From: Mytilus galloprovincialis
Lineage: Eukaryota; Mollusca; Bivalvia; Mytilida; Mytilidae
Length of the DNA: 64,000 nt
Reading direction: 5' to 3'
Assembly: GCF_965363235.1 (NCBI RefSeq)
Contig: NC_134844.1
Location: forward strand, 87,754,664 to 87,818,663
Below, piece after piece: positions 40,719-62,255 of the stretch (positions are counted from its first letter, which is position 1; every line of letters begins with the position of its first letter). The position numbers and the translations under genes were made by a program. A model generated the notes under the pieces. It searched no databases, was not told where the DNA came from, and worked only from the letters and a program-made list of their open reading frames with translations.

Positions 40719-41007
40719 TTGCATCTATATAAAATTTATTTTAATTTAAAATGCAGTTTGACAACGTGACACGTGCCAATATGGTATCAGTTTTATACAA
40801 ACAGTTTTGAATCAAGATTTAAAAGGTCCATTGATTCAAATGTAGTTTAGTTACTTGTTTGAGATAAGAATTAGTTTTAAATTCAATGTAGGAAGTATAG
40901 TACCATATCTAAATACATTTGAACGATATAAATGTGATGTGTATGTGCATGTAAAGTGCACACATATTTAGGTATGTGCATATTTGGATAAACATTGCAA
41001 CACGAGA

Positions 41008-41082
41008 ATGCTGGAGAAGGTGTTTAATGGGAGGTTATCGGTGTCTGTTACTGTTTTTATGCTGTCCTCTGTAATTGTTAGG
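41008..41082 (+). CDS. Exon 1: start and TM1 first half, unit 1
   Basis: 75 nt, phase 0 out. MLEKVFNGRLSVSVTVFMLS then SVIVR; short cytosolic start then helix, usual for tetraspanins. Donor AGG|GTAAGT. Confidence 0.75.
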
Positions 41083-44000
41083 GTAAGTTAACTTCATTGC
41101 ATTATTTTCGTATTTTCAATTAAAAAAAAAATGGGGGGGGGGGGGGGGGTGTAAAAAAATACAATAGTTGTCGGAAAACGGGCTGTTCTTTTGTAAAGAA
41201 TTAATATGCATTGTTCAGTTTTGCCTACGATTCGTGTTGAAATTCACGTGTCAAATAATCACAGGTACGATAATTTATCATAAATGTTTTTGGTAAACAT
41301 TCTGTAGATTGTTCATTAGGCGGAAAACCACCCGACTGGTATTCGTTCTCCCCATTAGTTCGTCCCATGTACATATTGGGACGTATTTATAACAGTCGTC
41401 TAGTGTAAACCTCCGACTAAGATTAAGAGAAGATTTTCATTATTCCATTTAAAAGGTCCTTGAACATGTTGAAGAGAAAATTAATGTATTGCAATGATTC
41501 ATTTAAAATTATGAGACACCTAAACATTTTAGAAAAACTTAATTAATTGCTTAGTAATAACACAAAAAGAGTATTGGAATTTAGTCTCATCATTGCGAGA
41601 ACATAATAATGATTATGATAACCTTCAGAATTTCATAGAAAGGAACTTGGCATTTCAACTTTATCTAAAACCCTATAAAGGAAGAATACAGGAAATAGAA
41701 AGTAAAATTAAACAAATAGTTAATAATTGAGAATATACTAGTTTTACCAATCTAGATTTTAAAATATCACAGTCAGAATTGCAGAAAGCAATAGCTAGTT
41801 TAAAATCGGATAAAAGTCCTGGGTTAGATAAAATAAATAATGAAATGCTTAAAGCTGCACAGTTATATATATATATAAACCAATGCTTGTTAAAGCTATT
41901 TAACTCGGTTTTTACATCAGATCTTATTATTTGTAATGAAATGTTTAATAGATAAATATGTTAACACAGGAAACAAACGATATAATTATGCATGTTTTGT
42001 TTTTGTCATAAAGCATTTGACACAGTGATCCACGAAGGGATAACATTGACATTATTGCAATGTAATATAAATGGTTTGTTTTATAATATATTATGTAGTA
42101 CGTATAGACATAGTAAAATAGTAGTAAAAATTGGAAATAAGCCACGAGATTCAGGGGTAGATCCAGCCATCTCAAAGGGGGTCCCAACCCATAGTAAAAG
42201 GGGAGGGGTGTTTCAACCATATGTCCATATTCAAATGCACTTTGATCCGCTACTGGGATTATATCACATACTATTGTTGGTTACACATAAAAGAATCTCA
42301 ACCCTTAATTTTTGAGGGGTTTGTATGATGTGAGTTGTTTTTATCATAATCACCAAGCCTTCATAATCAATTCGCATTTGAAATTTGCAAAATATTTATA
42401 ATGTAAATATACTGTTCTCCTGAATATACATCAACTATTAGCCACTGGACATGTATATTAGGGAGAGAGCGATGCAGATGGGTATTTATAAGATGGTCAT
42501 CGGACAGTTTCACTATACCGCGGTCAACTATACGATTTGAAAATGATATGTTCAAAGTAAGGTTTTGGTTGTCTTCGAAAAGGGTTAGGTAAGGTATTTG
42601 TAGGGTAATTAAGGCTTAAGGTAAAGGAAAGTTTATAATAGCTCTAATGATGGTGGTTTCCCTACAGTAAAATAATCAAAGTGTCAATCTTTTTCAGTTC
42701 TTTGGATTAGGATGCATAGGTCTTGCGTTTTACATGAAGTATGGTGACCGCCTCATAGACGATGACGTACTTCCTGCCCTCAACAGTTTAGAGATCTATG
42801 GCATGGAGCTGGGGACATTTATCCAGGGAGTAGTTTTTTCTACTGTTGTTTTTTTCGGATTTGAATTTGTTAATGGTATATTTGGTATATATGCTGGTTT
42901 AAATAAAAGAAAGAACTTTTTGATCGCTGTAAGTATATGTAATATTTCTTTTGTTCTCTGAATTCCGGAATCGACGATTAAAGAAAAGAGAAGAAACAGA
43001 TTTTTGTAAACATACATGTAGTAACATAGACGTGCACTTTAAACAACAGTCCAATTGTCACATATTTATTTATATTTACCATGAAAGAACTGCGTTGCAG
43101 GGAATATTTTAGACAAGAAGGGAAGTCATCCTTTAAAAATTAGTTAGTTCACCAATACCAAATAAAATGCTATATTAAAAAAAATTAGAGAACTTGGGTA
43201 CGTACATTGCATTTTTTTGAGAACATATTATCCAAAGAATCGATATACTGCATGTGTTTGCGTGTTTATCAAGAAAAACAGACATGTGTATCCGAGTCTA
43301 GTGGTAACAAGAATTTGAAGGATTGATTGAAAAGGAAACCTACAAAAATAAACATTACAAATGATAAACAATATAAACACAAAAATTAACAATTAGCTTT
43401 AAGCAACAAATTAGTAGTTGTGGAATATACAATATCAATATAAAAAAAGAAGATGTGGTATGATTGCCAATGAGTCAACTATCCATAAAAGACCAAAATG
43501 ACACAGGCATTAACAACTATAGGTCACCGTACGGCCTTCAACATTGAGCAAAGCCCATACCGCATAGTCAGCTACAAAAGGCCCGATAAGACAATGTAAA
43601 ACAATTCAAACGAGAAAACTAACGGCCCTATTTTATGTAAAAACCAATGAACGAAAAACAATTATGTAACACATAAACAAACGACAACCACTGAATTACA
43701 GGCTCCTCAAGTATGGCTTATTTTATTTGTTAATCATTGCATCCAACAACAGTCTGAAATTTGCTCAATTGAAAAACATAAAATGCAATAACAATAAATA
43801 CATTGGGATATGTTTTGAATCAAGACTGACATAAGGTTTATTGTATCAATATGTATTTGTAGTACATCTGTATATGCCTGTGTTTCATATTAGTGTGTAT
43901 AGTGGAAATAGTTCTCTGGTCACTAATGTACTATTGGGTAGGTATTGTATTATTTGACAACATATCTAATTGTGCAAGTATCGTATTTTTTTTATTTGAT

Positions 44001-45639
44001 TAGTATTTCTATTCCATCATACATGATTTGGGAGAAAATTAAAGCAAACATATAAAACACTTAATATGCAGGGAAAAAATGCGCTATCAAAACAAAAACA
44101 TTGATTCACGATACGACATTTTTCATACCGGGGTATTTTTGTTTCCTTGTATGTTTGATTATTATGTTTACTCTGATATAGGATATATCATAACACAGAT
44201 TTTAAGCCGAAGCTACGTACACATTGTGGTCACATAGTATACCTACATGTAGCTTATTGCACGCCTTTAATTGTTGCATGTGATCATCGCTGTGTTCTCT
44301 TAAAGGACAAACTGATTTACTGAGACTCAGACAACCAGCTTATGGGCATACATTTACGAGAAATATCAGAAACTCGATTACCGTATGTTTGCAATGCCCT
44401 TCAATTTTGTACTTGTTTGGTTTCATAACTGTTTTGATCTAAGTGTCACTGGTGAGTCTTATGTAGACGAAACGCGCGCCTGACGTATTATAAGTCTGGT
44501 ATTTTTGATAACTATTTGCAATCATTGTAAATATTTTACGTATTTCTGGTCTTTTAAATTATCAACACTGTAATTAACGTACCAACCGAGAAGTTTCAGA
44601 ATTACATGTTAATTTCCCATAAAATCTATGTTGTTGAAAAAAGACAAGTGTGTCAGTCACGCTGCTTTTGCTGTGAAAAAAGCTAGTTTAATAGCTCAAG
44701 ATCCAAACACTGGGTCGTACGAGCTGACCGAAGGACTTTTGACAGTACACGTGCAAACAAGCCGGGTAGCAATCTTGTATATGAATTTGAATTTCTTACG
44801 TAGGAGAATTACTACACGAAAAAACATCGTCGTTATACATACGTCAGTATTAGGTCCTTACCATGCATCATGTTTTGAAGGAATAAAATATATGAAAATG
44901 TGACCAATGATTGTATACATTGTAGATAAACAATGCATTGGAAGAAAATATTGACACGTTTCATAAAAGATATTCCGGGAGCTATCTGAAGAACGGTTAT
45001 CATGAAAAATGGAAAGCATTGTATGATTGTGTAAGTTGGTTTTAGAGAACCGTCTAATATTTAAGTGAAAATATACATATGGAGAAGTTGTATGAGGGCT
45101 AATGAGACAACTCTCTATCCAATCACAATAAATGAAAATTAAAGATCATAGTACGGTTTTCAACAAACAGCCTTCAATATAGGGGCCCTTTATAGTTTGT
45201 TGTTCGGTGTGAGCCAACGAAGGCTCCGTGTTGATGGCCGTACATTGACCTGTAATGGTTTACTTTTTCAAATTGTTATTTGGATGGAGAGTTGTCTCAT
45301 TGGCACTCACACCACATCTTCCTATATCTATTTAAGTGGCTCACACGAATCATCATGCTACAAAGGATACAAAAAGTGTAAAAACATTCAAACAGAAAAA
45401 AACAACAGTATAATCTCTTTAAATAAACGGGATACGAGAAACACCCATATGTACATGTATGAATCACAACAACTTGAAAAGTCAACATCCGAACAACAGT
45501 TTTGAATAAGATATAACGGAAAAGTTCAAATGTATTACAACAATATAATAAAAGAAACCAAACTATACTGTTTGACGAGCGAAATATACCAGAGGGACAT
45601 TCAAACTCATAGATAAAAATTAAACCGACATCGCCATGG

Positions 45640-45675
<36 letters not shown>

Positions 45676-48600
45676 ATTAGAGTACACAAAACACAACATA
45701 GAAAAATAAAGACTAAGCAACTCCAACCTCACCAAAACTGGGGGTGATCTCAGGTGCTCAGGAAGGCTAACTAGAGATAATTACCTTTTAATCAGATTTG
45801 GTACTCTTACTTCGACAATTTATGCCTGAACATTCAATAGCGATGTTGTTTTTGTTTTGTATTTTAGTTGGAATGTTGTGGCACCAACGGAACTGGTAAT
45901 ACATGCTCTGGAGTTAATGGCAATGGTGTGAACTTTCCTGGATGTTTTGACCTCTATTCAGAGAAAATGAATTTGTATATTCAGGTTTATCTTGGAATAA
46001 TAATAGTGTGTTTTCTTTGTCAGGTATGTTAATGAAATACTCAAAGGTGGCAAAGGTTTCATGTGTAACATAATTAAATAATAAATACCCTTTCAAAGGG
46101 GACGTAATTCCTGTCAGTATTCACCTTTTTTGTTTGTTGGCCATTGAATTTGTTCTCTATTATCTACACTATTAAATGAGAATGCATGTACCTGATTTTG
46201 TGTGTCGCTTCTCTTCCTTCCACAATACCTTAATCAACAAACCTTTGTGTCCTAAAGGTACCATGCATAGTCCTGGCACATGGCTTGTTTCCGTTTGGGT
46301 CATTTTTGGAGGAGAACGAAAACAAAGGCGTCCGTATACTGTTTCCGTCATCGGACGGTTTTTTAAGTTATAGATAAAACCTCAGTTAAGAACTGTTTGA
46401 AAATACACATAAGTGTCATAGGTACTTGGGGACAGAATTATTATTTCGCTTATTCTGTAAACTATGAACATACATACATGTATACTATAAATAAAATGAA
46501 TTTGCTATATATTTTCAATTCCAAGTTCACTATCAACGGCGGTCATATATTATATTGAGATAATATAGTATTGTAGATGTCCATAGTATACAAAAAAAAA
46601 AAACGCAATAAATAAATGAAATTAATAGAAAAAAATAAATAAAAAAAGATTTTGAAAAAAAGGGGGAGGCCTTAAAAAATTGTTCTGCCCCCAAGTACTA
46701 ACTAAAAGACTTTTGATACCTTTCCTGAAATTACCCAGTCATAAAATATTTTACAAAAAATCATCCTTCACTGATGAGTCTTATGTAGACGAAACGCGCG
46801 TCTGGCGTATAAAATTATAATCCTGGTACTTTTGATAACTATTTACAAAAAACCATCCTACAACAGTTTACACATTCAACCACGCTCTAAATGGACGCGA
46901 CTTCGCGGGTGTATTTTTGTTATATTTAAGTACCTCAGTATTCTCTAATGTGTATATTAACCCCAAGGGTGACTGGGCTATAGAAATATGGTCACTTGGT
47001 CTTCTCCCGACCGGCAGTAAAACGCTTGCCGAAGTGGGGTGTCCGTTTGGCTTTGCGGGATGTATCAAGTTCGAAGTCACGTCCTGTCAGAAGGGGGACG
47101 TTAAATCCGATGCCTCGTGTAAAGTGAGTGCCACGCTCTTTGCACGTTACCCTTACAACAACTCTTTGAGGGATCCGTAGGTGGCCTGTTGCAAGGCAAA
47201 ATTTCAGTTTCTATCCAATATACCCTCATTTTCCAGTGGCAGTCCAAATTTCCCCGACCATCATCCTCTATTATAAAAACCTACCTATTGTATTTATTGC
47301 TTACTTGTTTTCGCCCTGAATATGCATGCAATATTTGCCACTGGACGTTAAGCAACCAACAATCAATCAATCAACCAATCTTATGTTTATTGAATTGTTT
47401 CATTTTTTAATATCCTTTGTATTTGTAATACGCTTGTTTGTGGCGCTTTTTAAGTGATGTTGAAACAATTGTTTTTAATACGAATATAGCTTTGTTTTTC
47501 TCATCGGTTAACACTTCTTGGTAATAAAACAACCTATTGCTGCATACTTTAGTAATACAACAAACAAAAGAGTATCATTTTTGATTTTATTGTAGATAAT
47601 TGGTATTGGCGCTGCAGATTATACAGTAATAAAGCAACAAATGAAAAATGAAGGTGTCAAAAAGCTGTCTTCAGAACGGAGATATCTTCTCTGTATGAAG
47701 GAATATGGAGTTTTTCGTACGCTCTTAAAATTCCTGAAAGAAACTTGGAACAGGTAACTTTATTGTACATTGTTTGAATCCCATAATTGCTGTCCATATA
47801 ATATGGGTAATTTTCGGTTAATAAGCTTTTCAACGTTTAACTTTGTATAGTTTTTCTTTTTAAATAAAATGGCATAGATCATCACAAAAGAATGTTGTTT
47901 TTTTTTTTGGTTTTTGGTTTGTTACCCCGATTTTGTTTTTTTTTGTCCATAGATTTACGAGTTTTGAACAGCGGTATACTACTGTTGCCTTTATTTTTCC
48001 TTATCAAAATGCGCATCTAGTTGAGTTAAATTGGTGTCGTTATTCATGTTATTGTTATTAGAGATAAATGAATTGAAATAGTTATCTCTTGACATTTTTG
48101 GTCATAAGTGTTGTATGTTAATTTGATTATATAACATCTCAAATAACAAAGAATATTTATATGTTTTGGGCCTTCTTGAGGAATGTAAATGTAAATGCTG
48201 GAAAGTGCCTTGGACGCAGAACATTTATAACGTTATTATTTACAGCACTTGGTCATTACCTCTGCTGCATGGTAACTTAGTCCATGGTGATATCTACAGC
48301 TCAATAGTCAGTACTTTGGTATTGGTGTGATTTATAAGAATTATTTCTTATATTGTCCGTGGATAAGTTTTGAAATCATAAAGAAACTAAGATTTAAACT
48401 CCATCAGGCAATGTTAACCTTAGATTGAATTGACATTGTTTTAGGTCCTTTTTCTTCAAATGTTTCGATTCTTATACAATCTTGACTTTTAAGGAGGTAG
48501 ACCTAGGTTAAGGGAAATAACTCTTAAAATCATCCATACGTTTGTGTCAACCATTTTCAAAAATATATTCTAAGCTTCTAGGTTACATAGACTAGTTTTA

Positions 48601-51600
48601 ATCTGTTTCAGGTAAATGCTTAAAATACATTGACGAACTTGACTTTTACAAACGCTCAACTGATTTAAAGAGTTATTACCCTGAACCAAGGTCTACCCCC
48701 TTAAATATTCGGCGTTTAGAGTTCTTGTTGCAAGTTAGTCCAGAAAAGCGCGTCGAACGCGGTTGAAATTTATAACGTGCTGATTTCATTTAGTGTTGCT
48801 GTCAATATCTTAAGCGTGAGCGTTCCTAATATATATTAAATGAAAACAATTTAAACAATGCTATTTTTGTTGTCTTTTTTTCAGAACACCCCTACGCATT
48901 ATATCAGTAATAGTGAAATCGATAAACATGGTAGGTGGTAATTTTATAGGTTACTAAAACAAAACATTCCTATTCGATTATTTTATGTTTTTTAATCAGT
49001 TTTTTAGTAAAATTATTTCATTGACAAATGGTTGCATATATTAGATACGAAACAGTTTTATAGCCATATACAACTGTTGCCTATTTTTATTATACATAAT
49101 GTGTTTTTCTTCATTTCTCCGAACAGAAATTTACTTTGTGGTTAATAATACTTTTACCGTTATACATCTTGTTTAAAAAGAGCTAGCTATTTACAGTTTG
49201 TTACGGGTTATTACGATTAATTTTCTTTAATTTTCTGCAAAATTTGTCGATACTTATGCTTTGTCACGGATACCGAAGAGCACTTGATGGGCAATTTATG
49301 AGTTTTTTTCACGATATGATACCATTATCTAAGGGATTATACATAAATCATCAAATAAGATATGGTTTGAAGTTTTATGTATAACGCATAATGGTAATTC
49401 TGTTTTTAGTAGATATCGGCCCTACATGTAACTACAATTAACTACCGTCGCACTATCTTCGTGCCCTGCTCTATCATGGTGTTCGGATCAAATTCTCACT
49501 TGAATCAACCACAGACATAATAAATAAATGTGATTTATTATACTTTACGTTAAAGTGCCAGATTTTGATTGGTTCATAGGAAGGAAACAATTTACACTAT
49601 CACATAGCTCAGCGGGAGATATATCTTTTTAATGTAATCTTCTCGTGGGGACCAATCATCAATCGATAATTCAAAATCGATGCATTTACATCAATGACAC
49701 TAAAGACATAGCTAAAGTTATAGTTCTTTCATTGAGAGTCACTTTAAGAATAGAATACTTTTGTTATTTTGATTCAACATTAGTTTGTAAACGACTTCAT
49801 GGGGTAATGATAACTCTCTCAGCTATGTGTTATTTATATATTGTTCCCTCACTTAACACTCGATTGTCTCAAAATATGCACTTTTTTATCAATAACACTT
49901 CAACTTAGATAATATTATCTTCATATGTTTTTTTGGTTAATAGGTATCCAGTATAGCACTCATAATAACCAGTCTATGGTTTATAAGAAGTGATTTAATA
50001 ACCAATCAAGAGTTTATATACTACTTCCGGCGAATGGATGTATACGGTTACAGTTATCACAACGTGTTTACAGGTTTTGCTTGTTGTACACTTGCAATAG
50101 GAACGTTTGGTATCGTGATTGGAGTTATAGGCTTAGTTGGTTCAACAAAACAATCGACAGCACTGCACACAGTTGTAAGTATTACACCAGCATAACAAGG
50201 GTGGGGTTGTACACACCAGTTAAGGACGTACATCGTTACGTTCGGTCTGTTTTCCCCGATAACATAATGAACTGAAAGTAAATATCGTTGAATAATCATG
50301 CAGTAACAGTTAAGATATTGTACATATTCCCTTTGCAATGTGGCGATCTACATATTTGAGAAACGATTTAAAACAAACTTCTAGTTTATTCTCAAAATAT
50401 GGAACATTTTATGTTTGGGGAGGTGAAAGGTCTTGAAATTTGGTAAATAGCTTAGGAAGCTTTAGGAGTACCCATGTCTGACTTTACAAAAAAAAATCTC
50501 ATCCCCTTCTTTTTATTTTATGAAGAAACCTACGCGAAATAAATTGGGAAGGCATCTTAAAACATTTGCAAGTAATAGTTTGTTTTCTTGTTTTGTGTCA
50601 TTTAATTTAAAAAGGATTTGTGAGTTTTGAACATCGGTACAGAGTACTTTCGACACTGAAGAAAAATAAACACGTGATAAAATAATATAGAAGTCTTGTC
50701 AATAACACACAATTAGACTTATCGAAAGTTAAAAACGTAAACATACTTTGCATAAAACCGTTGTTCTTGATAGCTAATAAAACTATAGAATTTTCTTGAT
50801 GATGTAATGTTTAGTTGCATATGGTATATAGAAACACCGAATTTAATTCATTATTTCAGACATTTGTTTCATCAATTGCATTTGGAGGATTGAAAATAAT
50901 GGCATCAATATTCTGGGTTATTATGCTAAACGAGGTTTGTCTAATAATCAGTGAAGAATAGTCACGAGCTTGGAAATTTTTACCTTATATTATTTAAAGT
51001 TTAAATGCGATATTGAGTAAGGGAAAACATAATTATCTATAATACCAAAATTACGAGGTCCAATTTGTAAGACTTTCTAAGATAACAATACGAATACTAA
51101 AAATCTGGACTAAAAATAAGGCCATAGGTACAGTTTTCAATATATTAGTTGTCATTTAATTATTTTGTTTGTTTGTTTGACATCTTAGGTATTTGAAGAC
51201 TTTTTTCGTCAAATAATCGATCACAGATATCATTTGTTTCAAAACGTTTAACGATATCATGAAATTCATTACATGACGTCACAAAGTAAATCGGTTTTTA
51301 GATATTCTAAAAATAACCGTGCAATATGCTCTGTGCAATATGCTTTTTGCTATCCGCCGTTTTCTCTCTACCTTCGAAAATATAGTTTGACATGTGACTA
51401 TCCCTAAACGAATCAAATTTGTTAAAATATACGAATTAATGATATACTTTAATTCAGTCACGGACTCGCGATATCACGGGTGTGTTCTAGTATGATTGAA
51501 TTTTAGAGAACTTAACATATTTTGTGTACGTGTACGCCTGAGGCCTTACAAAATACAAACAAACAAGAAGAAGAAACGAATTAACAATCATAGCAAATGA

Positions 51601-54600
51601 ACAAAGCAGAACCTCAGAATACTTTAAGACGTATTAACTTTTCCGTTCTCTAGACATAATTGCGGGAACATACCATCGTGACATTAAAACACCATAAGTA
51701 AGAAACGTTGCTATATATAATTATCATTTCAAAACAAATAAAAGATATTTAGAGATTAATATGACAATCTCTCAATCATTATGAGTTTCGAAAAGTAGTG
51801 GAAGAATTCAACAAAAAATAACTAAAATTTTGCATTCAACATATATTTTGTTAAAGACACTTTCGTGGTCCTTGGCTCATGGTGTGGTTGTTGTCTCTTT
51901 TACATATTTCCAGTTTCCATTCTCTTATTTATCGACAAAATACAAAATACAATAAGAACACAAATAAACCACATTCAGATATGTCAAAAGACATAAAAGC
52001 TATAATCATATTGCGTGTTTAAACATATTCGTAACTAGCATCCATCAGTAAATTAAATAAACAAATACAATGGTTTAGCGATAGCACAAGGCATACTACT
52101 ATTGAATTGCATGCTTAAAAAAACTAGTAAAGAATATTGCATTCGTTTGTAGTGTTTGAGCTTTTGATTTTGCGATTTGATTATGAACTTTCCTTTTTTA
52201 AATTTTCTTTGGATTCAGTTTTTTTCAATTTTTTACTTTTTGCAGGTACATGTACATGTACATATATAAATTCAAATTCTCAATATTAAAGTATATATTA
52301 TTCTGATAATATTTCGTAACACATTGTATGTTTTCATTTAATCATAAAACTCATCTTCTTACAAGATAACAAGACATGTCGATGCTGAGCTGACTGAGTT
52401 AAGTGGAACTGATATATTTTACACGACACTTATGTTGAAGGTAAGTAAATATTAGGTTCACAAAAGAAGAAGTGTCGATTTTGGTGTGTTTGTAACACAA
52501 AAGATTTCAACAACATTACGGTAATATAACTTTTCATGCCTTATGATTTTAGGTTGGAAATGATTACAATTGATATTTGTAATGCATGTAGTTCGTTCTT
52601 AAATCAAATATAGCAAACTTTATATCTGAATAGTGTATATGGTGTTTTGGATTGTGAAAATGTATTTGACGCAGGAGGTGAGAACTTTACGTAAAACATT
52701 AAAGGCACAATCATTATAACAAAAACGAAAAGAAACCGATAATACACTGGCCAAAAAAAACTTAGAGGAAAACTAAACTTTTAGCAGCAGGAAGCCAACA
52801 AACAAAACAAGAGTGCTTTTAGTGCTGCAAAAGGCTACACAGATACTTCCATTTATTTGACCACTACCTTACTGATACAGTTGAATTTTAGGGAATAATC
52901 AATTAGTTTTATATTTTGTCACATGGTTTCGTTGTGCTAGATTGTAAGGTGGTGACTCATATGGGCGTTTTTCAATAAAAACGTATTTTCTTGTCCCAGC
53001 CACTTTAAAAAAATATGCTTGATCTTTTTGCAAGTAATTTTTTGTGCAGTAATTACATTGAATTAGATTTAACATTTTTAAGCAAAGAAACAGTTTATTT
53101 TTTAGAGGGATTGATAAGATATTGACTCCTGAATGGTCCAGAACAACCAAAATGGCATGTCCCTAGACCACCTGTTCAACATTCATACTCTGAAATATCG
53201 TAAAAAAATGAAGAAATAAATGTTATTTTTACTTTACATAAGTTCATTAATAATTCAAAAGTATGGTCAGAGCCAACATATTTTAATAAACAGCTTTCAA
53301 TATAGGATTTTTAATTTCAGAAGGTGTGTCCATCACAAAATGTCCACTACGAAACGAAGTCATTAAAATTTGCCAATAAACAGTTTTATAAAATCAATGT
53401 AATTTTTGTTTGCAAGAGATATAAACATTAGGGTCTTATAAAAGAAGTGATGCTTTTATAATGGCAATTAAATTGTTGGTAAGAAAAATTGAGCACATCA
53501 AATGGACCAGAGTGATACCGTATTTTTGTTAATTACCACTACGAAACGGGTCAAATCTCCTTCATTATCTGGTTTTAAAATTATGAAAAAAATATCAGTG
53601 TACAGCTTAATAAATGCTTTGATGAATACAATCAGTCTTGTTACTATTGCAATATAGGGATTGTGGGGGGGGGGAATAAAACATGCGAATATGTCCCCTA
53701 CGAAACGGTCCCCTACGAAACAAGTATGGGAGAAAAACGTTTCGTAGTGGACACTACCACTACCATGCAGTCTTTTTTTAATCTTTTGTCAATTATATTC
53801 GTGCAAAACTAATAACAAGGGTTAGTTTCATGTTATTTTCATTATGTTTTTATTAACATAAAATATGGTCGATGTCAACTACGAAACTTTTTGTCCACTA
53901 CGAAACGGTTTTGTCCACTTCGTAACGCATCAAAATGTCCACTACGTAACATGAGTTTTACCTTCATATGTGAAGTACTGTCTAATCTTTAACGATAAAA
54001 ATGGTTTTCCAATTCAGAAAAAAATGAGATTTTTCTAGTATTTATGGTAAACAAACTTGAATGTCTATAGGAAACATTTAAAATTGCAAAAAATATGTGT
54101 GTTTAGAAGAAGTTTCGTAGGGGACAAAAGTCCCCTACGAAACAGTACACAAATTATGAAAATAATATCATTTAAGGAGGGTCGAGGGTATAAAAATTTC
54201 AGAAAAAAATCAAACATTTGTTTTTCATTACAAATTTTATTTACTTCCTTTTGTAGTTGTTACTTTATCATATGGTACAAAAATCATTCAAAACAATCAA
54301 TTCGTGTTGGCCCCAGATGACTTTCAAAATGTATACATCATTGAAAAAGTTCCAAATTATCTCCCTTTGGTGGAAAAATGCCATTTTTTGCTCTAAAATT
54401 GAAATATCTTTTTCAACTCATCGGTGACCTATCTTTTTTAATATAATTTCCATATAAGCTGTACTTAAACTAAATCATTGTAAAATTTTAGCGATTTCTG
54501 TAATAAATTTCTTTTTTTTATTTTGATATTACCTTTATTTCTCCTATTACTTCAACAGAAAAAAACCGCCTTTACAAAAATGCATGCTTCTTTCGAAGGC

Positions 54601-57600
54601 AGATTGTGAGCGCAAATGAACGGTGACCCCACTTTTTTATTTTATTTTTCTATTAGCTATAAGATAAAGTTCATTTATAGAAAAATATAGGGAAATCCTA
54701 TATAAATGATTTATACCCGCGAACCCCCTTAAAAGAATATTTAAGATTGCACTTTTTGTTTATAAAATTGCACTTTTTGTTTACAAACAGGTCTATAATA
54801 GAGGTATTCAAAGTAACTCTTGAAATGATATTTTAAACAAGTTGATTTTCATTTTTTTTTTAGGTCTGAAAGTTACGCTTTTACTGAAAAACGCCCATAT
54901 AGAAGAATACATGTCACATTTGTTTCCCACAAGTTCCCCATTGAATTTTATCTTGGTATATAAATAATTGCAACAGTAGTATACCGATGTTCGAAAGTCA
55001 TAAATCGATAGAGAAAAAAAAACAAAATCCGAGTTACAAACTTAAATCGAGGAAAACACATCAACTATATATAAGAGTTAAACAACGATACAACAGAAAC
55101 ACTAAAATGCAACAAAAAGCAAAACGAAAATGTAACACACACAGAGTTATCTGATATAAAATGATCAGGAGGGGAAGCACTCAAAGGACCTGAAAACATG
55201 TGTTTTAAGCTCACCTGGCCCGAAGGGCCAAGTGAGCATTTCTCATCACTTGGCGTTCGTCGTCTGTCGTCCGTCGTCGTTAACTTTTACAAAAATCTTC
55301 TACTCTGAAACGATTGGGCCGAATTAAACCAAACTTGGCCACAATCATCATTGGGGTATCTAGTTTAAAAAATGTGTGGCGTGACCCGGCCAACTAACCA
55401 AGATGGCCGCCATGGCTAAAAATAGAACATAGGGGTAAAATGCAGTTTTTGGCTTATAACTCAAAAACCAAATCATTTAGAGCAAATCTGACATGGTTAA
55501 AATTGTTCATCAGGTCAAGATCTATCTGCCCTGAAATTTTCAGATGAATCGGACATTCCGTTGTTGGGTTGCTGCCCCTGAAATGGTAATTTTAAGGAAA
55601 TTTTGCTGTTTTTGGTTATTATCTTGAATATTATTATAGATAGATAAACTGTAAACAGCAATAATGTTCAGCAAAGTAAGATCTACAAATAAGTCAACAT
55701 GACCAAAATGGTCAGTTGACCACTTTAGGAGTTATTGCCCGTTATAGTCAATTTTTAACCATTTTTCGTAAATCTTAGTAATCTTTTAGAAAAATCTTCT
55801 CCTCTGAAACTACTGGGGCTAAATTTAACCAAACTTAGCCATAATCATCATTGGGGTATTTATTTAAAACAATGTGTCCGGTAACTCGGCCAACAAACCA
55901 AGATGGCCGCCATGGCTAAAAATAGAACATGGGGGTAAAATGCAGTTTTTGGCTTATAATTCAAAAACCAAAGCATTAAGAGCAAATCTGACAAGAAGTA
56001 AAATTGTTGATCAGGTCACGATCTATCTGCCCTGGAATTTTAAGATGAATCGGATAATCGGTTGTTAGGTTGCTGTCCCTGAATTGGTAATTTTGAGGAA
56101 ATTTTGCTGTTTTTTTGTTATTATCTTGAATATTATTATAGATAGAGATAAACTGTAAGCAGCAATAATGTACAGCAAAGTAAGAACTAAAAATAAGTCA
56201 GTATGACCAAAATAGTCAATTGACCCCCTAAGGAGTTATTGCCCTTCATAGTCAATTTTTAACAATTTTCTTAAAATTTGAAGATTTTCAATAACATTTT
56301 CCACAGAAAGCAATGTTATAGATAGAGATAATTGTAAGCAGCAAGAATGTTTAGTAAGGTAAGATCTACAAACACATCACCATCATCAAAACACAATTTT
56401 GTCATGAATCCATTTGTGTCCATTGTTTAATATTCACATAGACAAAGATGAGCGACACAGGCTCTTTAGAGCCTCTAGTTTATATATATACAGACTCCAC
56501 CTGGATAACTGATATCTTTTATACTAAAATAACGAAGTCTAATTTGTTCGCTGATATGACGTAAAAATGACGAATCAAACAAGTCAACTATACATTTAAC
56601 TTAGACAAGAGCAAAGTGCTGATAAACAGTTACACCATTCCAGGACCTTTTGTTTTTGCAGATAATCAATATAACCAATAACTAAAACACATGTAAAAAG
56701 TCCTGGGTTAAATCCGATACCGGTTCCAAATTTGTATAAAGCCAGATGTCAAGTGCATAAATCAATTTTGTTTTCTTTAAACTATCAAGTGAAAATCAGA
56801 GAACATGAATACAGCTTCCTTACCGATGTTAGGAACCTTTAAATCAGTGGTTTTTCGTTCATTGTTTTGTACATAAATCTGACCTTTTTTTTAGTGATTT
56901 TTTCTGAATTGTTCATTTCGGGGACTTTTATAGCTGTCTATATGGAATGGGTTTGGCTAATTGTTGTGGCCGTACCAAATGACATAGTAATTAACCTCTA
57001 TGTCATTTGGTACATGTATGTGGTCTACCACATCTTTTTATTTTTATATTACAGAAAAAAAACAGTATACCTTGTCACGTGTTTTGGTACTTATTTGTCC
57101 CTGGCTTTCAAATATTTGACTTAATTTGTGTAGAAAAATAAACTCATCATAGATACTAGGATTGAAATCCTATATTTACATCAGACGCGCGTTTCGTCTA
57201 CAAAAGACCCATCAGTGACGCTCGAATCAAAACATGTTAAAAGGCAAAATAAAGTACTAAGTTGAAGAGCATTGAGGACCAAACATTCCTAAAAGTTTGG
57301 CCAAACGCAGCCAAGGCAATCCCTTCCCGAGGTAGAAAAGCCTTAGTATTTCGAAAATTCAAAATATTGTTTACAGTTAATTTATAGTTATTAGAAAAGC
57401 ACTCAAACGCAAATTCAATTTTTGAAGTGCAGTTTTCATTTGTTTAAGCAAATCTCATAATAACCATAGCTATAGTGCAATAGTTACTTATAATTAAAAA
57501 AAACGTAGAATTTATCATTGAAATATTAGATTGCTTTTGTTCAGAAAGAAAGTTGACGGTGCTAATAAATGAAATTGATATCCGTTCCAGTGAAAATATA

Positions 57601-60600
57601 AATTGATATGTATTAATTGCAGGAATTTTCTTTTTTTCAGTTTCAATGCTGTGTAATAAAGACACAGTCGCAAGCCTTTTTCTGTTATTCCAATATGCAT
57701 GAAAGCATAGTTAATTACGGTAGTGGATGGAATAGTCATGGTTTGTATATAGGAAGTGGTCTATATGGAACCAACGAAGGAGAAAAGGTCAGTGTATTTT
57801 TTATTTCAACTTCTTCTTTATGTCTGTCATCTAAGCTAGTCAATGTCTCATCTTCGTTAGCCAGGGATTATGATTGTAGTCCCCTCCTCTCCGACCTTTG
57901 CCTATTACGACAGAATTCAAGGTCCAGGAGGTAATAATTTCAGTTGGTTGCAGTTGTAAATGATTGCGTCCAATCAAAAATGATATAGAGATGATCTCGT
58001 ATAAATATATAATATGTAAATAAACAATTGCAACGTGCTGATAGTAAACTAAGTCTTTATCCCCATAGCCAAGGACGATATTAAAGGATATTAAAATAAT
58101 TGATCAACTAATTGAGGTTCCTGGGTATGTTTCTCGTAAACACGTTTGAATGTAAAAGTATATTTACGTCTCTTTCTTCACGAAATTCGTAAACACTAGC
58201 CACTACCATTTTACACCTCCACAAGAAAGAAAGTATAAGTGCAGCCATTGGTCAAAATTGACGTGACTTTTTTCCGGTAAATGGCTCAGCGTTGTAATCA
58301 CAAATGTTGGCTTAGACTTCCAAGGGTTGAGAAAAAGGGGCTGGATCATTAACTTTGCTTACGAAGATAGTCAATGTCTATGCTGTAACCAAAAGCGTTA
58401 ATTCTACAGCAATAAGTACCGATTTGCTTATTTTAATTGTTCAATCACATCTATATACATAAATGCATTGATATCCTAATTATATACATATATGCATTGA
58501 TATCCTGATTATATACATCTTGCATTGATTTCCTTATTATATACATATATGCATTGATATCCTGATTATATACATCTTGCATTGATTTCCTTATTATATA
58601 CATATATGCATTGATATCCTGATATCTACACAATAATGACGACATTGTTAATCATTTGTATATAACGTTTGTTTGTTTTTTTTCAGTATTGTTCTGAAGC
58701 AATTTCAGGACGCTTAGTAGTTATATCAGGATATTATTTCGCCTTTTTAATACTAGGAATAATTTGCGATGTAAGTTTATTCAAAGTGCCTTCAATAGAC
58801 CTATTGCAAACAAAAGAACATTTATTCGATTGAGACTTACGTACTTTGAACCATTAATATTACGATATAATAATACAACATGTACCTACGATCCGTGATA
58901 TATTAGGAATTGAGCTAGTGTCATTTACAGAGTTTCGATATTCGTTAAGTTCTAGCGATCGGGAAAAGGTTGTAATTAATAATATATGAACAATCTTAAA
59001 AAAATAATGATACGTATGTTTTTTGCATGGCAAATACGAGTACTCGCCGTATGTTGTGTTGTGTATATTTTAATCTTTTTTTTTTTAATTTTTCCTCGAC
59101 ATGCGGACAACAGCTTTAGCCCAAAAGATCATGTCTTTTTTATGTTATGGTTTCTGGTTATGTCTACGTGGTTTTCATTCTGAAATTGAAATACCATCAT
59201 TTGATAAAATTAAGACTGGAAATGAGGAATATGTCAAAGAGACAACAACCCGACCAAAGAGTAAATTACAGCCGAAGGCCACTAATTAGTCTTCAATGCA
59301 GCGACAAAATCGAGCACCCGTTAGTGGTCATCAGCTTACATGTACCCTTAAATAAAATATGTACTAGTTCAGGGATAACTGACGTTACCCGTAACTCCAA
59401 ACATATAAATGAACTGAAAAATATACATAACTCACTAAAGCCAGAGGCTCCTAGATTTGAACAGGCTGCAATTTAAGTCTTTTAATCGAAAAGACGTTCA
59501 TTTCCCCAAAAGAGTTCTTCAAACCTACCCTCATGAAAATAGTAAAACAAATCGTCACATGTACCAGGTTTGAATTGTGTACGTCGTAAACAAAAGAATC
59601 AACAATGACTCTGGAAGTACTACATTTTAAAACATTAAGGACATGACATGCATAATTCTAAAAAGGTTTTACCAAATAATTATAAGGAAACTAATTCATG
59701 GGACAGATACATTTTTATGAATTACCTACACGGCAAACAGTATAAACTAACAGGACGGTTCACTATTGATTTTTTTAAATTATTGAAATACGCCTCCATT
59801 ATGAACAAGCACAAAACAATTAACTAAGATTCTCTGGTGAGTGTACATTGTAATTTTTTTTAAATCCTACAAATCTGATGAATAGCTATAAACCATAACA
59901 TACAAAAAAGATTTTAAAATGCGTATTACACTCAAACATCTCACTTTAGTGAGACAAAAGGGGTTACACATTAAACAAGATAGCGGCCATTCTAATTTTA
60001 CTTACAAAATACCTCAAAGTTCAAAGGTCTATCAGTATGTTTTTTCTAAATAAAAACGTTTTTCAATATCAAAATTGTCAATTTCATAAAAATGGTACTT
60101 CATTAAGCTTGAAAATATAGTTATGAAGAACACTTCGAAAATGTCTTGTGACATTAGCGATTGCACAGTTCTCTTTGCACATTTTTATAGACATTATCAT
60201 AAGTGACCAGTATAATGGAACTGCCTATGCAATATATCAATTTAAAAGTCAACTCAACCATGTCTAAATTGCAGATCGTAGCACCTATTTTTATCAGCAA
60301 AGAATTTAAGGAAAGTCAACGAGTAAACGTCGAGAGAGAGACAAAGGAAACGATGCATTTGGTTCCTTGGTTAAATCATTTAGTTAGACGTGATAAGCCA
60401 AGGTATATTGTACATATACATATGAATATCGTAATCATGATTGAATGGCTTTGAAATTTATTATTTCCCGAATCTATGTGTTTAATAGTATTAGTTTTAT
60501 TAAAAGAGCTTACCAACTGTAGGCCAATCGACTGCAATGATTCCAGTTAACATTTACTTTCCGGATACGAGTGTTCGCAAGATATGCTAACGGTTACTGA

Positions 60601-61635
60601 CATATTTCAATAACAAAGTTACATCTTGACACGAAATGGAATATTCTTTTTAAAAAGATGTTCATTATTAAAAAAAATAGGCTCATTGAAGGATCTGCAA
60701 CAAACAAACACCAATCGAAATTTAACTATCTTCATTAACATGATTAAGTTTATAAAATTTTATTGTTTGAATATATATATGTAGATTTATTCAAATAGGA
60801 CTTTTCTTTTTAAACACGACAATTAATCTATTTTTAGGAGTGTCTTATTATCGTTATACATCTGTTTGGCAGTTTTTATGATGGTTTGTATGATTATTTA
60901 TCTCTATCATAATTTTCAATATTTCATTGTATTTGTGTGATTCTTGTTTGTTTTCCCATTTACTTCCGTTAATATACCTATATTTACTACACATTTTTGA
61001 ACATTTTCAATGCTATTTAGCTGTTTTGATTTGAGCGCCATTGGTAAATATAATGCAGACGACCCATGTGTCTAGCGCACTAAACAACACATTTGGTATA
61101 TTTGATTTCATCTAGGGAGTAAAACTAAATTGCAATTGGTTTTTTTTCACCTAGTTTTATCCGTTTGCTTTTTTTATATGTACCAAACACCGAAAACGTC
61201 TTATGCAAAGTATATGTTTTTTAAGTTTCATAACCAATATTCTCTAACCCCCCACCCCCCAAAAAATGATTAAAAAACGGAATGAGCAAATGAATGACTA
61301 CATTGATAAATTCTGATAATGCATTTATCAAATCAGAAAGCAATATATTTTCAACTTAGATATTGGTTTTGCTTAACTTTATGCTTTAACAAAAATATGT
61401 ATTTCCAATTCTTTGGTTTTGATAAATTCGTTTTCAGTTACTTGAGATGGCATACATAGTGTTAGCGGCCGTATTTAGTATTTCAAACCACGTCAACAGA
61501 GATTATATAGATCATATAGGGGATTTGTATGTATTCTTGGCTATAGGAAGCATTGTCCTGGTGTCATGCTTCATGATCGTTAGATTTGCTGGTTTGATTG
61601 TTGTTCTTAAAAAATGGAAGAGGAGCCTGTATGTG
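41008..61635 (+). CDS. Poly-tetraspanin: at least three tetraspanin units fused in one frame (3' end outside)
   Basis: Fifteen exons join without a stop into 610 codons from ATG 41008: 41008-41082, 42698-42928, 43863-43937, 44926-45030, 45868-46023, 47596-47753, 48885-48930, 49944-50174, 50860-50934, 52366-52440, 57641-57787, 58687-58770, 60275-60402, 60838-60883, 61438-61635. All borders are AG/GT and phases match. Unit 1 (residues 1 to about 225) has four helices, a large loop with the tetraspanin CCG motif (165-167), a PGC motif and a possible N-glycosylation site (NGT). A 40-residue basic linker leads to unit 2 (about 268-495) with the same helix order and CC at 412-413. A second linker leads to unit 3, of which the first two helices are seen. 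Tetraspanins organise membrane microdomains and are normally about 200-300 residues with one unit. The fused form is, to my knowledge, unusual. Later exons are not found up to 64000. Confidence 0.8.
41136..41151. repeat. Poly-G tract in intron 1
   Basis: An uninterrupted run of about 15-16 G. Confidence 0.85.
41590..42151 (+). mobile_element. Non-LTR retrotransposon (LINE) RT fragment
   Basis: SELQKAIASLKSDKSPGLDK then INNEMLKAAQL is the start of a LINE RT domain (S-P-G-x-D). After a deletion, a KAFDTVIHEGI...LLQCNINGLFYNILCSTYR block continues the RT. It is truncated and frame-shifted; the clade was not determined. It is interrupted by a MITE at 42152. Confidence 0.7.
42152..42255. mobile_element. 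Small MITE, CAGGGGTAGATCCAG termini
   Basis: Ends CAGGGGTAGATCCAG and GATCCGCTACTG resemble those of 21627-21791; flanks AGATT and GGATT give a near-perfect 5-bp target duplication. Confidence 0.5.
42698..42928 (+). CDS. Exon 2: TM1 end, small loop, TM2, unit 1
   Basis: 231 nt, phase 0/0, acceptor CTTTTTCAG. FFGLGCIGLAFYMK, an acidic small extracellular loop (KYGDRLIDDDVLPALNSL), then TM2 VVFSTVVFFGFEFVNGIFG and the basic turn NKRKN. Same length as exon 8. Confidence 0.88.
43448..43706 (-). repeat. Rep-A copy, inverted, full length
   Basis: AAGATGTGGTATGATTGCCA, TAGGTCACCGTACGGCCTTC, GAGCAAAGCCCATACCGC, AACGGCCCTATTTTATG and TGAATTACAGGCTCC. Confidence 0.8.
43863..43937 (+). CDS. Exon 3: TM3, unit 1
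   Basis: 75 nt, phase 0/0, acceptor TATTTGTAG. YICICLCFILVCIVEIVLWS then LMYYW: a cysteine-rich helix with a conserved-type Glu near its end. The later AG at 43891-43892 is not used because it would break the frame. Confidence 0.8.
44441..44515 (-). repeat. Rep-C fragment
   Basis: GGTGAGTCTTATGTAGACGA, AACGCGCGCCTGACGTA and TTTTTGATAACTATTT; same orientation as 46769. Confidence 0.6.
44628..44903 (+). other. Unassigned ORF in an intron
   Basis: The first 45 codons or so are less AT-rich than the surroundings and look protein-like (KCVSHAAFAVKKASLIAQD, YELTEGLLTVHVQTSR). No family is recognised, and it is not in phase with neighbouring tetraspanin exons. It may be a fragment of a transposed gene or chance. 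Confidence 0.15.
44926..45030 (+). CDS. Exon 4: first part of the large extracellular loop, unit 1
   Basis: 105 nt, phase 0/0. INNALEENIDTFHKRYSGSY then WKALYDC; charged helix A/B region of the tetraspanin EC2, ending just before the CCG exon. Confidence 0.85.
45074..45330. repeat. Rep-A inverted pair (head-to-head)
   Basis: An inverted piece (45074-45180, degenerate) abuts a + copy of the GTGAGCC subfamily (45180-45330, TTCGGTGTGAGCC, GATGGCCGTACATTGACC, CTCACACCACATCTTC). Confidence 0.6.
45573..45782 (-). mobile_element. Rep-D: retroelement 3' end with long A run
   Basis: AGAGGGACATTCAAACTCAT, CATCGCCATGGC, about 30 A, then GGGGGTGATCTCAGGTGCTC. Same order as other Rep-D copies. Confidence 0.6.
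45868..46023 (+). CDS. Exon 5: CCG loop and TM4, unit 1
   Basis: 156 nt, phase 0/0, acceptor GTATTTTAG. LECCGTNGTGNTCSG carries the diagnostic CCG; FPGCFDLYSEKMN is the PxxC-like end; VYLGIIIVCFLCQ starts TM4. Confidence 0.92.
46769..46835 (-). repeat. Rep-C fragment
   Basis: CTGATGAGTCTTATGTAGAC, GAAACGCGCGTCTGGCGTAT and ACTTTTGATAACTATTT. Confidence 0.65.
46958..47380 (+). mobile_element. Probable tRNA-derived SINE
   Basis: A B-box-like GTTCGAAGTC (47069-47078), a GC-rich body and a 3' end GCCACTGGACGTTAAGCAAC followed by an (ATCA)n tail. That tail is familiar from bivalve SINEs (from memory). It lies in intron 5 of the tetraspanin gene. Confidence 0.5.
47596..47753 (+). CDS. Exon 6: end of TM4 and cytosolic linker 1
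   Basis: 158 nt, phase 0 in, phase 2 out. IIGIGAADY ends TM4; a basic linker of about 40 residues (VKKLSSERRYLLCMKEYGVF, TLLKFLKETWNR) follows where a normal tetraspanin would stop. Confidence 0.85.
48490..48703. mobile_element. Foldback element in intron 6
   Basis: AAGGAGGTAGACCTAGGTTA at the left and AACCAAGGTCTACCCCCTT at the right are inverted; related to 23433-23700 by its right end. Confidence 0.5.
48885..48930 (+). CDS. Exon 7: linker end and TM1 first half, unit 2
   Basis: 46 nt, phase 2 in, phase 0 out, acceptor GTCTTTTTTTCAG. RTPLRIISVIVKSINM. It has no initiator Met at its start, so unit 2 is reached from unit 1. Same length and phases as exon 14. Confidence 0.8.
49944..50174 (+). 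CDS. Exon 8: TM1 end, small loop, TM2, unit 2
   Basis: 231 nt, phase 0/0, exactly the length of exon 2. VSSIALIITSLWFI, a loop with FIYYFRRMDVYGYSYHN, then TM2 FACCTLAIGTFGIVIGVIGL. Confidence 0.88.
50860..50934 (+). CDS. Exon 9: TM3, unit 2
   Basis: 75 nt, phase 0/0, same length as exon 3. TFVSSIAFGGLKIMASIFWV then IMLNE. Confidence 0.85.
51266..51490 (+). mobile_element. Helitron 3'-end fragment
   Basis: CGCGATATCACGGGTGTGTT then CTAG before T is a diverged copy of the 3' end of the Helitron at 36934. The 5' border was not found, so the start given is a guess. Confidence 0.4.
51862..51936 (+). repeat. Rep-B copy, partial
   Basis: GGTTGTTGTCTCTTTTACAT then CCAGTTTCCATTCTC. Confidence 0.5.
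52366..52440 (+). CDS. Exon 10: first part of the large extracellular loop, unit 2
   Basis: 75 nt, phase 0/0. ITRHVDAELTELSGTDIFYT then TLMLK; the homologue of exon 4 but ten codons shorter. Confidence 0.82.
52963..54896. mobile_element. DNA transposon-like element, GGGCGTTTTTC termini
   Basis: The left end GGGCGTTTTTCAATAAAA and the right end TTTTACTGAAAAACGCCC are inverted copies, with ATAT on both outer sides (a possible 4-bp target duplication, though palindromic). Similarity goes on for about 35 bp. No transposase ORF is seen; the interior holds the motif array at 53341-54145. The superfamily was not determined. Confidence 0.6.
53341..54145. repeat. Array of about 11 TCC(A/C)CTACGAAAC motifs
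   Basis: Motif copies at about 53341, 53534, 53692, 53708, 53739 (inverted), 53873, 53892, 53914, 53936, 54111 (inverted) and 54130. Spacing is irregular and both orientations occur. GTCCACTACGAAACG and GTCCCCTACGAAACG are the two forms. Confidence 0.8.
54900..55206. other. Intron, no feature seen
   Basis: Nothing was recognised between the GGGCG element and the second HINE-like element. Confidence 0.4.
55207..56479 (+). mobile_element. HINE-like element 2, about 500-bp core repeats
   Basis: It has the same start hairpin (GCTCACCTGGCCC...), CGTCGTCGT tract and end (GGCTCTTTAGAGCCTCTAGT) as 9645-11680. Here the core is two units of about 500 bp (from about 55290 and 55790), each with CCAAGATGGCCGCCATGG. 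Confidence 0.7.
56843..57042 (+). repeat. Rep-A copy, diverged
   Basis: TCAGTGGTTTTTCGTTCATT, GGGACTTTTATAGCTGTCTA, ATTGTTGTGGCCGTACCAAA and CTACCACATC. Confidence 0.55.
57132..57395 (+). repeat. Rep-C copy
   Basis: CAGACGCGCGTTTCGTCTAC, AAAAGACCCATCAGTGACGC, GAGCATTGAGGACCAAA and GAGGTAGAAAAGCCTTAGTA match 6990-7160. Confidence 0.75.
57641..57787 (+). CDS. Exon 11: CC-containing part of the large loop, unit 2
   Basis: 147 nt, phase 0/0, acceptor CTTTTTTTCAG. FQCCVIKTQSQAFFCYSN; the CC pair is kept but Gly of CCG is Val. The rest is Gly/Ser-rich (NYGSGWNSHG, GSGLYGTNEGEK). Confidence 0.85.
58450..58622. repeat. 28/29-bp minisatellite, about six units
   Basis: Units TATATACATATATGCATTG + ATATCCTGAT alternate with TATATACATCTTGCATTG + ATTTCCTTAT. 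The minus-strand ORF with repeated QDINAYMYIIRKSM is an artefact. Confidence 0.88.
58687..58770 (+). CDS. Exon 12: last loop Cys and TM4, unit 2
   Basis: 84 nt, phase 0/0. YCSEAISGR then LVVISGYYFAFLILGIICD. Together with exon 11 it equals exon 5 of unit 1. Confidence 0.86.
59215..59345 (-). repeat. Rep-B copy, inverted
   Basis: GGAAATGAGGAATATGTCAA, AGAGACAACAACCCGACC and GTCTTCAATGCAGCGAC. Confidence 0.65.
60275..60402 (+). CDS. Exon 13: end of TM4 and cytosolic linker 2
   Basis: 128 nt, phase 0 in, phase 2 out, as in exon 6. IVAPIFISKEFKESQRVN, acidic/basic ERETKETMHLV, then WLNHLVRRDKPR. The linker differs in sequence from linker 1 but has the same place and phase. Confidence 0.83.
60838..60883 (+). 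CDS. Exon 14: TM1 first half, unit 3
   Basis: 46 nt, phase 2 in, phase 0 out, same as exon 7. RSVLLSLYICLAVFMM. Confidence 0.72.
61030..61112 (-). repeat. Degenerate Rep-C fragment
   Basis: AATGCAGACGACCCATGTGT then CTAGCGCACTAAA and TTTGGTATATTTGATTTC keep the order of Rep-C with many changes. Confidence 0.35.
61438..61635 (+). CDS. Exon 15: TM1 end, short loop, TM2, unit 3
   Basis: 198 nt, phase 0/0, homologue of exons 2 and 8 but 11 codons shorter in the small loop. LLEMAYIVLAAVFSISN, NRDYIDHIGDLY, then FLAIGSIVLVSCFMIVRFAG and KKWKRSLYV. Donor GTG|GTAAGC implies further exons. Confidence 0.85.
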
Positions 61636-61751
61636 GTAAGCTATTTAAACTTGAGAACTGAAAAATTGAAAAACAGCGGCTTCATTTCATATAAAATATT
61701 GTTATACTGTATTCGTATTTTATTTGCAAATTCTCTTTGAATCGTTAGGTT

Positions 61752-62046
61752 ATATAAAAGAGATACGAAAGATACCAGATGGACAGTCAAACTCATAAAT
61801 CGAAAACAAACTGACAACGCCATGGCTAAAAATGAAAAAGACGAACAGACAAACAATAGCACCTGGGATCACCCCTAGTTTTTGGAGGGGTTCGTGTTGC
61901 TTATTCTTTAGTTTTCTATGTAGTGTCATGTGTTCTATTGTTTGTCTGTTTCTCTTCTTTCATTTTTTGTCAGACGTTGTCAGTCTATTTTCGATATATG
62001 AGTTTGACTGTCCCTCTGGTATCTTTCGCCCCTCTTTTAAGATTAT
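61752..62046. mobile_element. Head-to-head pair of retroelement 3' ends (Rep-D)
   Basis: The left half (minus sense, 61752-61855) carries GACAGTCAAACTCATAAATC and GACAACGCCATGGC. The right half (plus sense, 61860-62046) carries GGATCACCCCTAGTTTTTGG through GAGTTTGACTGTCCCTCTGG. Together they form a long imperfect palindrome. Broken fossils. Confidence 0.65.
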
Positions 62047-62255
62047 ACAGAGGTTACTTATGGTTTTTACCCGTTTAGTGGAACAATTATATGAAGAAGG
62101 CTTAAAACTCTTAGTACTGTAACTAATATGGATAAGTGCTTTACAGTGCTTTGACGCCAATTGGGACACATTTAGTGTTTATTCTAATCTTATTGTCTGA
62201 AGACATGTTGAAACGATTGAGAACAGATTTTTGTCTACACCCTTACGAAAATTTC

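Follow-up and report, generated by a model that had tools for sequence, protein, structure and literature searches.

Tetraspanins are normally separate single units, thought to act by lateral, changeable association, and the locus analysed here raises the question of whether several such units can follow one another in a single protein. It lies in a stretch of 64,000 nucleotides of Mytilus galloprovincialis DNA (the window), and the original prediction was that at least three tetraspanin units share one open reading frame. Our results give good support to a predicted covalent two-unit tetraspanin at the DNA level, and this part of the prediction stands, while the third unit is proposed from exon anatomy more than from sequence. 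We give the presence of at least two tetraspanin units in one protein a probability of about 0.65.

Gene model and identity of the first two units

Rebuilt exon by exon, the gene model has 15 exons between 41008 and 61635 of the forward strand, which join into 1830 nt and 610 codons with no stop. AG is found at all 14 acceptors (exons 2-15) and GT at all 15 donors, and the frame is kept at every junction, which bears out the AG/GT exons with matching phases that had been proposed; the two joins between units, 47753/48885 and 60402/60838, were exact to the nucleotide in the rebuilt gene. The start codon at 41008 is preceded by an in-frame TAG at 40969, with no earlier ATG. Unit 1 covers 41008-47753 (267 residues) and unit 2 covers 48885-60402 (262 residues), giving 529 residues for the two full units, and a putative unit 3 at 60838-61635 (81 residues) is cut by the end of the window. 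A single unit would have 200-300 residues with its own start and stop; here the frame crosses both linkers, although exons 6 and 13, left unspliced, would each run into a stop. Splice sites were ranked with a rough site table, scored against all GTs or AGs of the window. The exons of the first two units are as follows.

41008..41082, + strand, exon 1: start codon, TM1 (first half); phase 0 out; donor in the top 0.2% of window GTs
42698..42928, + strand, exon 2: rest of TM1, small loop and TM2; 231 nt, phase 0/0; inside the PF00335 match
43863..43937, + strand, exon 3: TM3; 75 nt, phase 0/0, length and phases as in exon 9; hydropathy peak 3.0; weak acceptor, top 41.7%
44926..45030, + strand, exon 4: start of the large extracellular loop; 105 nt, phase 0/0; inside the PDB match; weak acceptor, top 28.2%
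45868..46023, + strand, exon 5: large loop with CCG, most of TM4; 156 nt, phase 0/0; CCG at residue 165
47596..47753, + strand, exon 6: end of TM4 and first basic, putatively cytosolic linker; 158 nt, phase 0 in/2 out; donor in the top 0.7% of the window
48885..48930, + strand, exon 7: TM1 (first half), reached by splicing without an upstream start; 46 nt, phase 2 in/0 out
49944..50174, + strand, exon 8: rest of TM1, small loop and TM2 with glycine motif; 231 nt, phase 0/0
50860..50934, + strand, exon 9: TM3; 75 nt, phase 0/0
52366..52440, + strand, exon 10: start of the large loop, ending just before CC; 75 nt, phase 0/0; donor top 0.1%, acceptor top 21.7%
57641..57787, + strand, exon 11: CC part of the large loop, after a 5200-nt intron; 147 nt, phase 0/0; acceptor top 2.2%, donor top 0.7%
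58687..58770, + strand, exon 12: rest of the large loop, most of TM4; 84 nt, phase 0/0; acceptor top 0.4%, donor top 1.4%
60275..60402, + strand, exon 13: end of TM4 and second basic, putatively cytosolic linker; 128 nt, phase 0 in/2 out; donor in the top 7.3% of the window

An acceptor at 43894 was tried for the TM3 exon of unit 1 and rejected, as it breaks the frame; 43863-43937 (75 nt) fits. In the 5200-nt intron between exons 10 and 11, inspection by eye shows several spaced copies of a motif like 'actacgaaac' at 53340-54140 and two similar longer repeats containing 'ccaagatggccgccatggctaaaaatagaacat' at 55390-55990, the latter perhaps belonging to a mobile element.

Unit 1 scored 33.5 bits against the Pfam Tetraspanin model (PF00335) over residues 16-174, above the curated cut-off of 32.1, and matched the PDB entry 8jj5_A, a chain named Tetraspanin, at E 4.4e-4 over residues 74-171. 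Unit 2 reached 21.7 bits against the same Pfam model (E 1.7e-4), which is significant yet below the curated cut-off of 32.1, and gave no Tetraspanin match in PDB at E<=10. The large loop of unit 1 holds five cysteines in the pattern C-CC-C-C, namely CCG at residue 165 together with C162, C175 and C188, and that of unit 2 holds four in the pattern CC-C-C, namely CC without G at 145-146, C157 and C193; CCG in unit 1 and CC in unit 2 had both been read correctly at the outset.

Human tetraspanins conserve Gly67, 74, 77 and 80 and a small residue at 81 in TM2, in CD9 numbering, as well as Asn-Gly-Gly in TM1 and Glu/Gln in TM3 and TM4 (available part of PMC1190194). The TM2 pattern, searched as G.{6}G..G..G[AST], has one copy in the 127,996 six-frame codons of the window, and this copy is TM2 of unit 2, in exon 8; the pattern is absent from unit 1. 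For TM1, N.{6}G.{6}G is absent from units 1, 2 and 3. By eye, unit 1 carries Glu in TM3 and Gln in TM4, and unit 2 carries Lys in TM3 and Asp in TM4. The two units share about 20% identity, and their alignment score was reached by 1 of 1000 window-shuffles in global and 30 of 1000 in local alignment. On the strength of the Pfam scores, the PDB match of unit 1, the TM2 motif of unit 2 and these shuffle tests, units 1 and 2 are, as judged from their sequences, tetraspanins.

Their gene structure recalls that of the CD63-like group, which is defined by ancestral introns 1-6 of animal tetraspanins together, all of them in phase 0 (available part of PMC2650405). The six introns of unit 2 are all in phase 0: one lies in TM1, one each after TM2 and TM3, one each before CC and TM4, and one in the end of TM4. 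They agree with the CD63-like six when matched by order and protein region only. Unit 1 has five phase-0 introns, and the one it lacks from the six is that between the CC exon and TM4. On the Pfam profile, intron 1 lies near position 13 in units 1 and 2 alike, provided that their first residues are aligned gap-free, and the exon from the second part of TM1 to TM2 (231 nt) and the TM3 exon (75 nt) have the same lengths in units 1 and 2. The CD63-like loop is described with six cysteines, CC-CC-C-C, and relatives with 4, 6 or 8 cysteines are described as sharing the introns (PMC2650405, same part); neither loop found here shows this six-cysteine arrangement. As far as that part of the source goes, the likeness to CD63-like tetraspanins consists of four TM per unit, a CC loop, phase-0 introns (six in unit 2, five in unit 1) and, in unit 2, the TM2 glycines. 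The differences are that CD63-like tetraspanins are described there as single proteins of 200-300 residues, whereas here two full units would make at least 529, that the loops have fewer cysteines, and that a phase-2 intron appears in place of a stop and a start (PMC2650405).

It is highly improbable that the locus is a pseudogene or an unexpressed remnant of a tetraspanin cluster. The absence in unit 2 of the G of CCG and the failure of unit 3 to match any tetraspanin model would suit such a remnant, but the 15 exons contain neither a stop nor a frameshift, and 14 of the 15 donors lie within the top 8% of window GTs, although just 8 of the 14 acceptors lie within the top 10% of AGs.

The search of the window for other copies with all three units (tblastn, E<=10) returned 17 matches outside the exons (best E 0.033, stop-interrupted), and no cross-unit match on the exons was better than E 2.1. 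An NCBIfam scan gave no relevant match. Pattern searches gave 3 matches in viral contigs and 16 in prokaryotic contigs, none confirmed, in collections not expected to hold a relative. Two other open frames of the forward strand were noted in the window. That at 33397-34560 is very rich in Thr, Ser and Pro and mucin-like, with repeated TTSYVDT blocks; that at 24010-25290 has 426 codons, is Ser/Thr-rich and carries a hydrophobic stretch near its end. Neither has a Pfam match at E<=0.1.

The first join

Between units 1 and 2, no donor within 47596-48884 scores higher than 47753, and no acceptor within 47760-49940 scores higher than 48885. Among open AG..GT stretches of 40-55 nt with the same phases as exon 7, exon 7 ranked first of 432 on the forward strand, and 0 of 346 on the reverse strand were better. 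Upstream of exon 7 there is an in-frame TGA at 48841 with no ATG between, and both inter-unit introns of the model are in phase 2, lie just before TM1 and are followed by a 46-nt exon. The first join is well supported.

The same region bears on the possibility that the units are separate neighbouring tetraspanin genes produced by tandem duplication, the open frame of the linkers being due to chance or to occasional read-through. Unit 1 would then end at TAA 47755, unit 2 would begin in an unseen 5' exon or at the ATG with which exon 7 ends, and the same would hold for unit 3. We regard this as quite unlikely. Exon 6, if unspliced, does run into that TAA and is followed by AATAAA at 47863, but AATAAA is frequent here (1.77 per kb in the window). 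Also in favour of separate genes, 6% of random frames have an open tail of 47 codons and 12% one of 35 codons, the lengths seen in linkers 1 and 2, respectively. Linker 1, however, holds no first exon leading from an ATG to a phase-2 donor with a donor in the top 13.2%, and at least one such candidate is found in 88% of 40 equal-length stretches across the window. A start at the ATG closing exon 7 would lose the first half of TM1, though that half is open, hydrophobic and preceded by the best local acceptor. That both joins have the same phase and the same length of following exon also argues against separate genes.

Some products of single units may exist alongside a fused one. A short unit 1 isoform made by intronic polyadenylation is possible, given the stop at 47755 and AATAAA at 47863, and a shorter unit 2 could start from the ATG of exon 7, losing half of TM1. 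The base-composition coding score was -0.032 for the exon 6 tail, -0.006 for the exon 13 tail and -0.030 for exon 7, with a mean of -0.025 for open windows; on position-specific base composition the linkers resemble open DNA that is non-coding.

The second join and the putative third unit

Between unit 2 and the putative unit 3, donor 60402 is the best of 60275-60837 and acceptor 60838 is the fourth best of 60410-61437. In the ranking used for exon 7, exon 14 came 25th of 432 on the forward strand, and 20 of 346 on the reverse strand were better. Upstream of it there is an in-frame TAA at 60824 with no ATG between, and its base-composition score is higher in another frame. Exon 14 alone proves little, since sequence of this kind is common: the forward strand carries 68 short AG..GT stretches that are open, hydrophobic and in the same phases. 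The second join is weak, and several of its features suit separate genes. Read-through of exon 13 meets a stop at 60452 and ATTAAA at 60499, and two ATGs close exon 14, as one closes exon 7. For unit 3 there is one alternative first exon, which opens with ATG 60445 and closes at donor 60518, ranked second among the donors of its stretch; 55% of 435-nt stretches (n=40) hold at least one such candidate.

The exons assigned to unit 3, half a unit in the window, are the following.

60838..60883, + strand, exon 14: first half of TM1; 46 nt, phase 2 in/0 out; weak sites, top 12.6% and 13.1%
61438..61635, + strand, exon 15: rest of TM1, small loop and TM2; 198 nt, phase 0/0; donor top 0.6%, acceptor top 20.1%

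At E<=10, the 81 residues of unit 3 had no Tetraspanin match in Pfam and no match in PDB, and the TM2 glycine pattern is absent from them. Compared with the first half of unit 1, their score was reached by 13 of 1000 shuffles in global and 208 of 1000 in local alignment; compared with the first half of unit 2, by 516 and 894 of 1000, respectively. Control halves aligned globally had their scores reached by 448 and 389 of 1000 shuffles. Downstream, in 61650-63990, seven candidate exons passed the filter and none was convincing as TM3, in a search that could miss a weaker exon. Exons 14 and 15 give two hydropathy peaks, and their lengths and phases fit a tetraspanin unit. By its exon anatomy, and only by it, unit 3 is likely a tetraspanin, its sequence not proving this. 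Of the two complete units and half of a third announced for this frame, the former hold as tetraspanins, and the latter follows more from the shape of its exons than from what they encode.

These observations also bear on a gene of two units only, a reading that overlaps with our own. In it, 60838-61635 would form a gene of its own, represent a decayed unit or contain no exon, and the end of unit 2 would be the stop at 60452 or lie in an unrecognised exon. We consider it rather unlikely, although the missing Pfam and PDB matches, the weak pairwise scores, the weak sites of exon 14 with an alternative first exon at 60445, and the lack of a convincing TM3 exon and of the TM2 glycines all speak in its favour. 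Against it, exon 14 repeats the form of exon 7 (46 nt, phase 2/0), exon 15 is open, in phase 0/0 and followed by a good donor, the two exons together supply two hydropathy peaks, and the global comparison with the first half of unit 1 (13/1000) is better than most shuffles achieve.

The predicted protein and known tetraspanin assemblies

The reading of at least two units in one protein agrees with the topology that can be predicted from the frame. Ten hydropathy peaks fit 4+4+2 helices, and the linkers, taken between peaks, have 51 and 44 residues, with 12 K/R against 5 D/E in linker 1 and 9 against 6 in linker 2. Under the positive-inside rule cytosolic loops are basic, and a cytosolic placement of these basic linkers fits that rule. 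Each unit would cross the membrane four times with both ends in the cytosol, and since a unit that starts and ends there can be followed by another through a cytosolic linker, units can succeed one another in this way. Both cysteine-bearing large loops would lie outside, in a fixed one-to-one order.

Most likely, a tetraspanin gene with CD63-like introns would have been duplicated in tandem and its copies would then have fused. The phase-2 intron just before TM1, standing where a stop and a new start would otherwise separate the units, would be the trace of that fusion, and the product would be expressed as one mRNA and one polypeptide. A concatemer of at least three units in one chain, a tandem cluster fused through phase-2 introns and possibly representing a gene family in this lineage, is a tentative extension that we hold at somewhat less than even odds. 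Equally tentative is the idea that such a concatemer of at least three units would act as a genetically fixed microdomain core with set order and stoichiometry. A permanently linked pair or chain may hold partner proteins at set number and spacing, and the linked units would achieve through the peptide chain what single tetraspanins achieve by associating laterally.

Protein databases contain automatic models with several Tetraspanin hits. The claim that no family like this has been described agrees with the literature matches listed, among which no natural tandem, double or fused tetraspanin appears by title and abstract start, and the literature search found no paper on tetraspanin exon lengths. 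Multi-unit tetraspanins are not mentioned in the available parts of PMC4930577, PMC11944595 and PMC3534613. How tetraspanins cluster their partners is called unknown in the available part of PMC7536822, where a 'concatenation model' is proposed for CD9-EWI-F. The likeness lies in adjacent tetraspanins organising partner receptors; the link there is non-covalent and transient, whereas here it would be a peptide chain. In oligomers of peripherin-2/ROM1 (available part of PMC9645710) tetraspanins are covalently chained, but by disulfide bridges between separate proteins, unlike the gene fusion proposed here.

If the proposed gene is real, a fixed tetraspanin pair or chain would be functional in nature. 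It would provide a ready-made object for structural work on the side-by-side packing of tetraspanins, and it would clearly exemplify how the copies of a tandem duplication can fuse, in a family whose introns are old and conserved.
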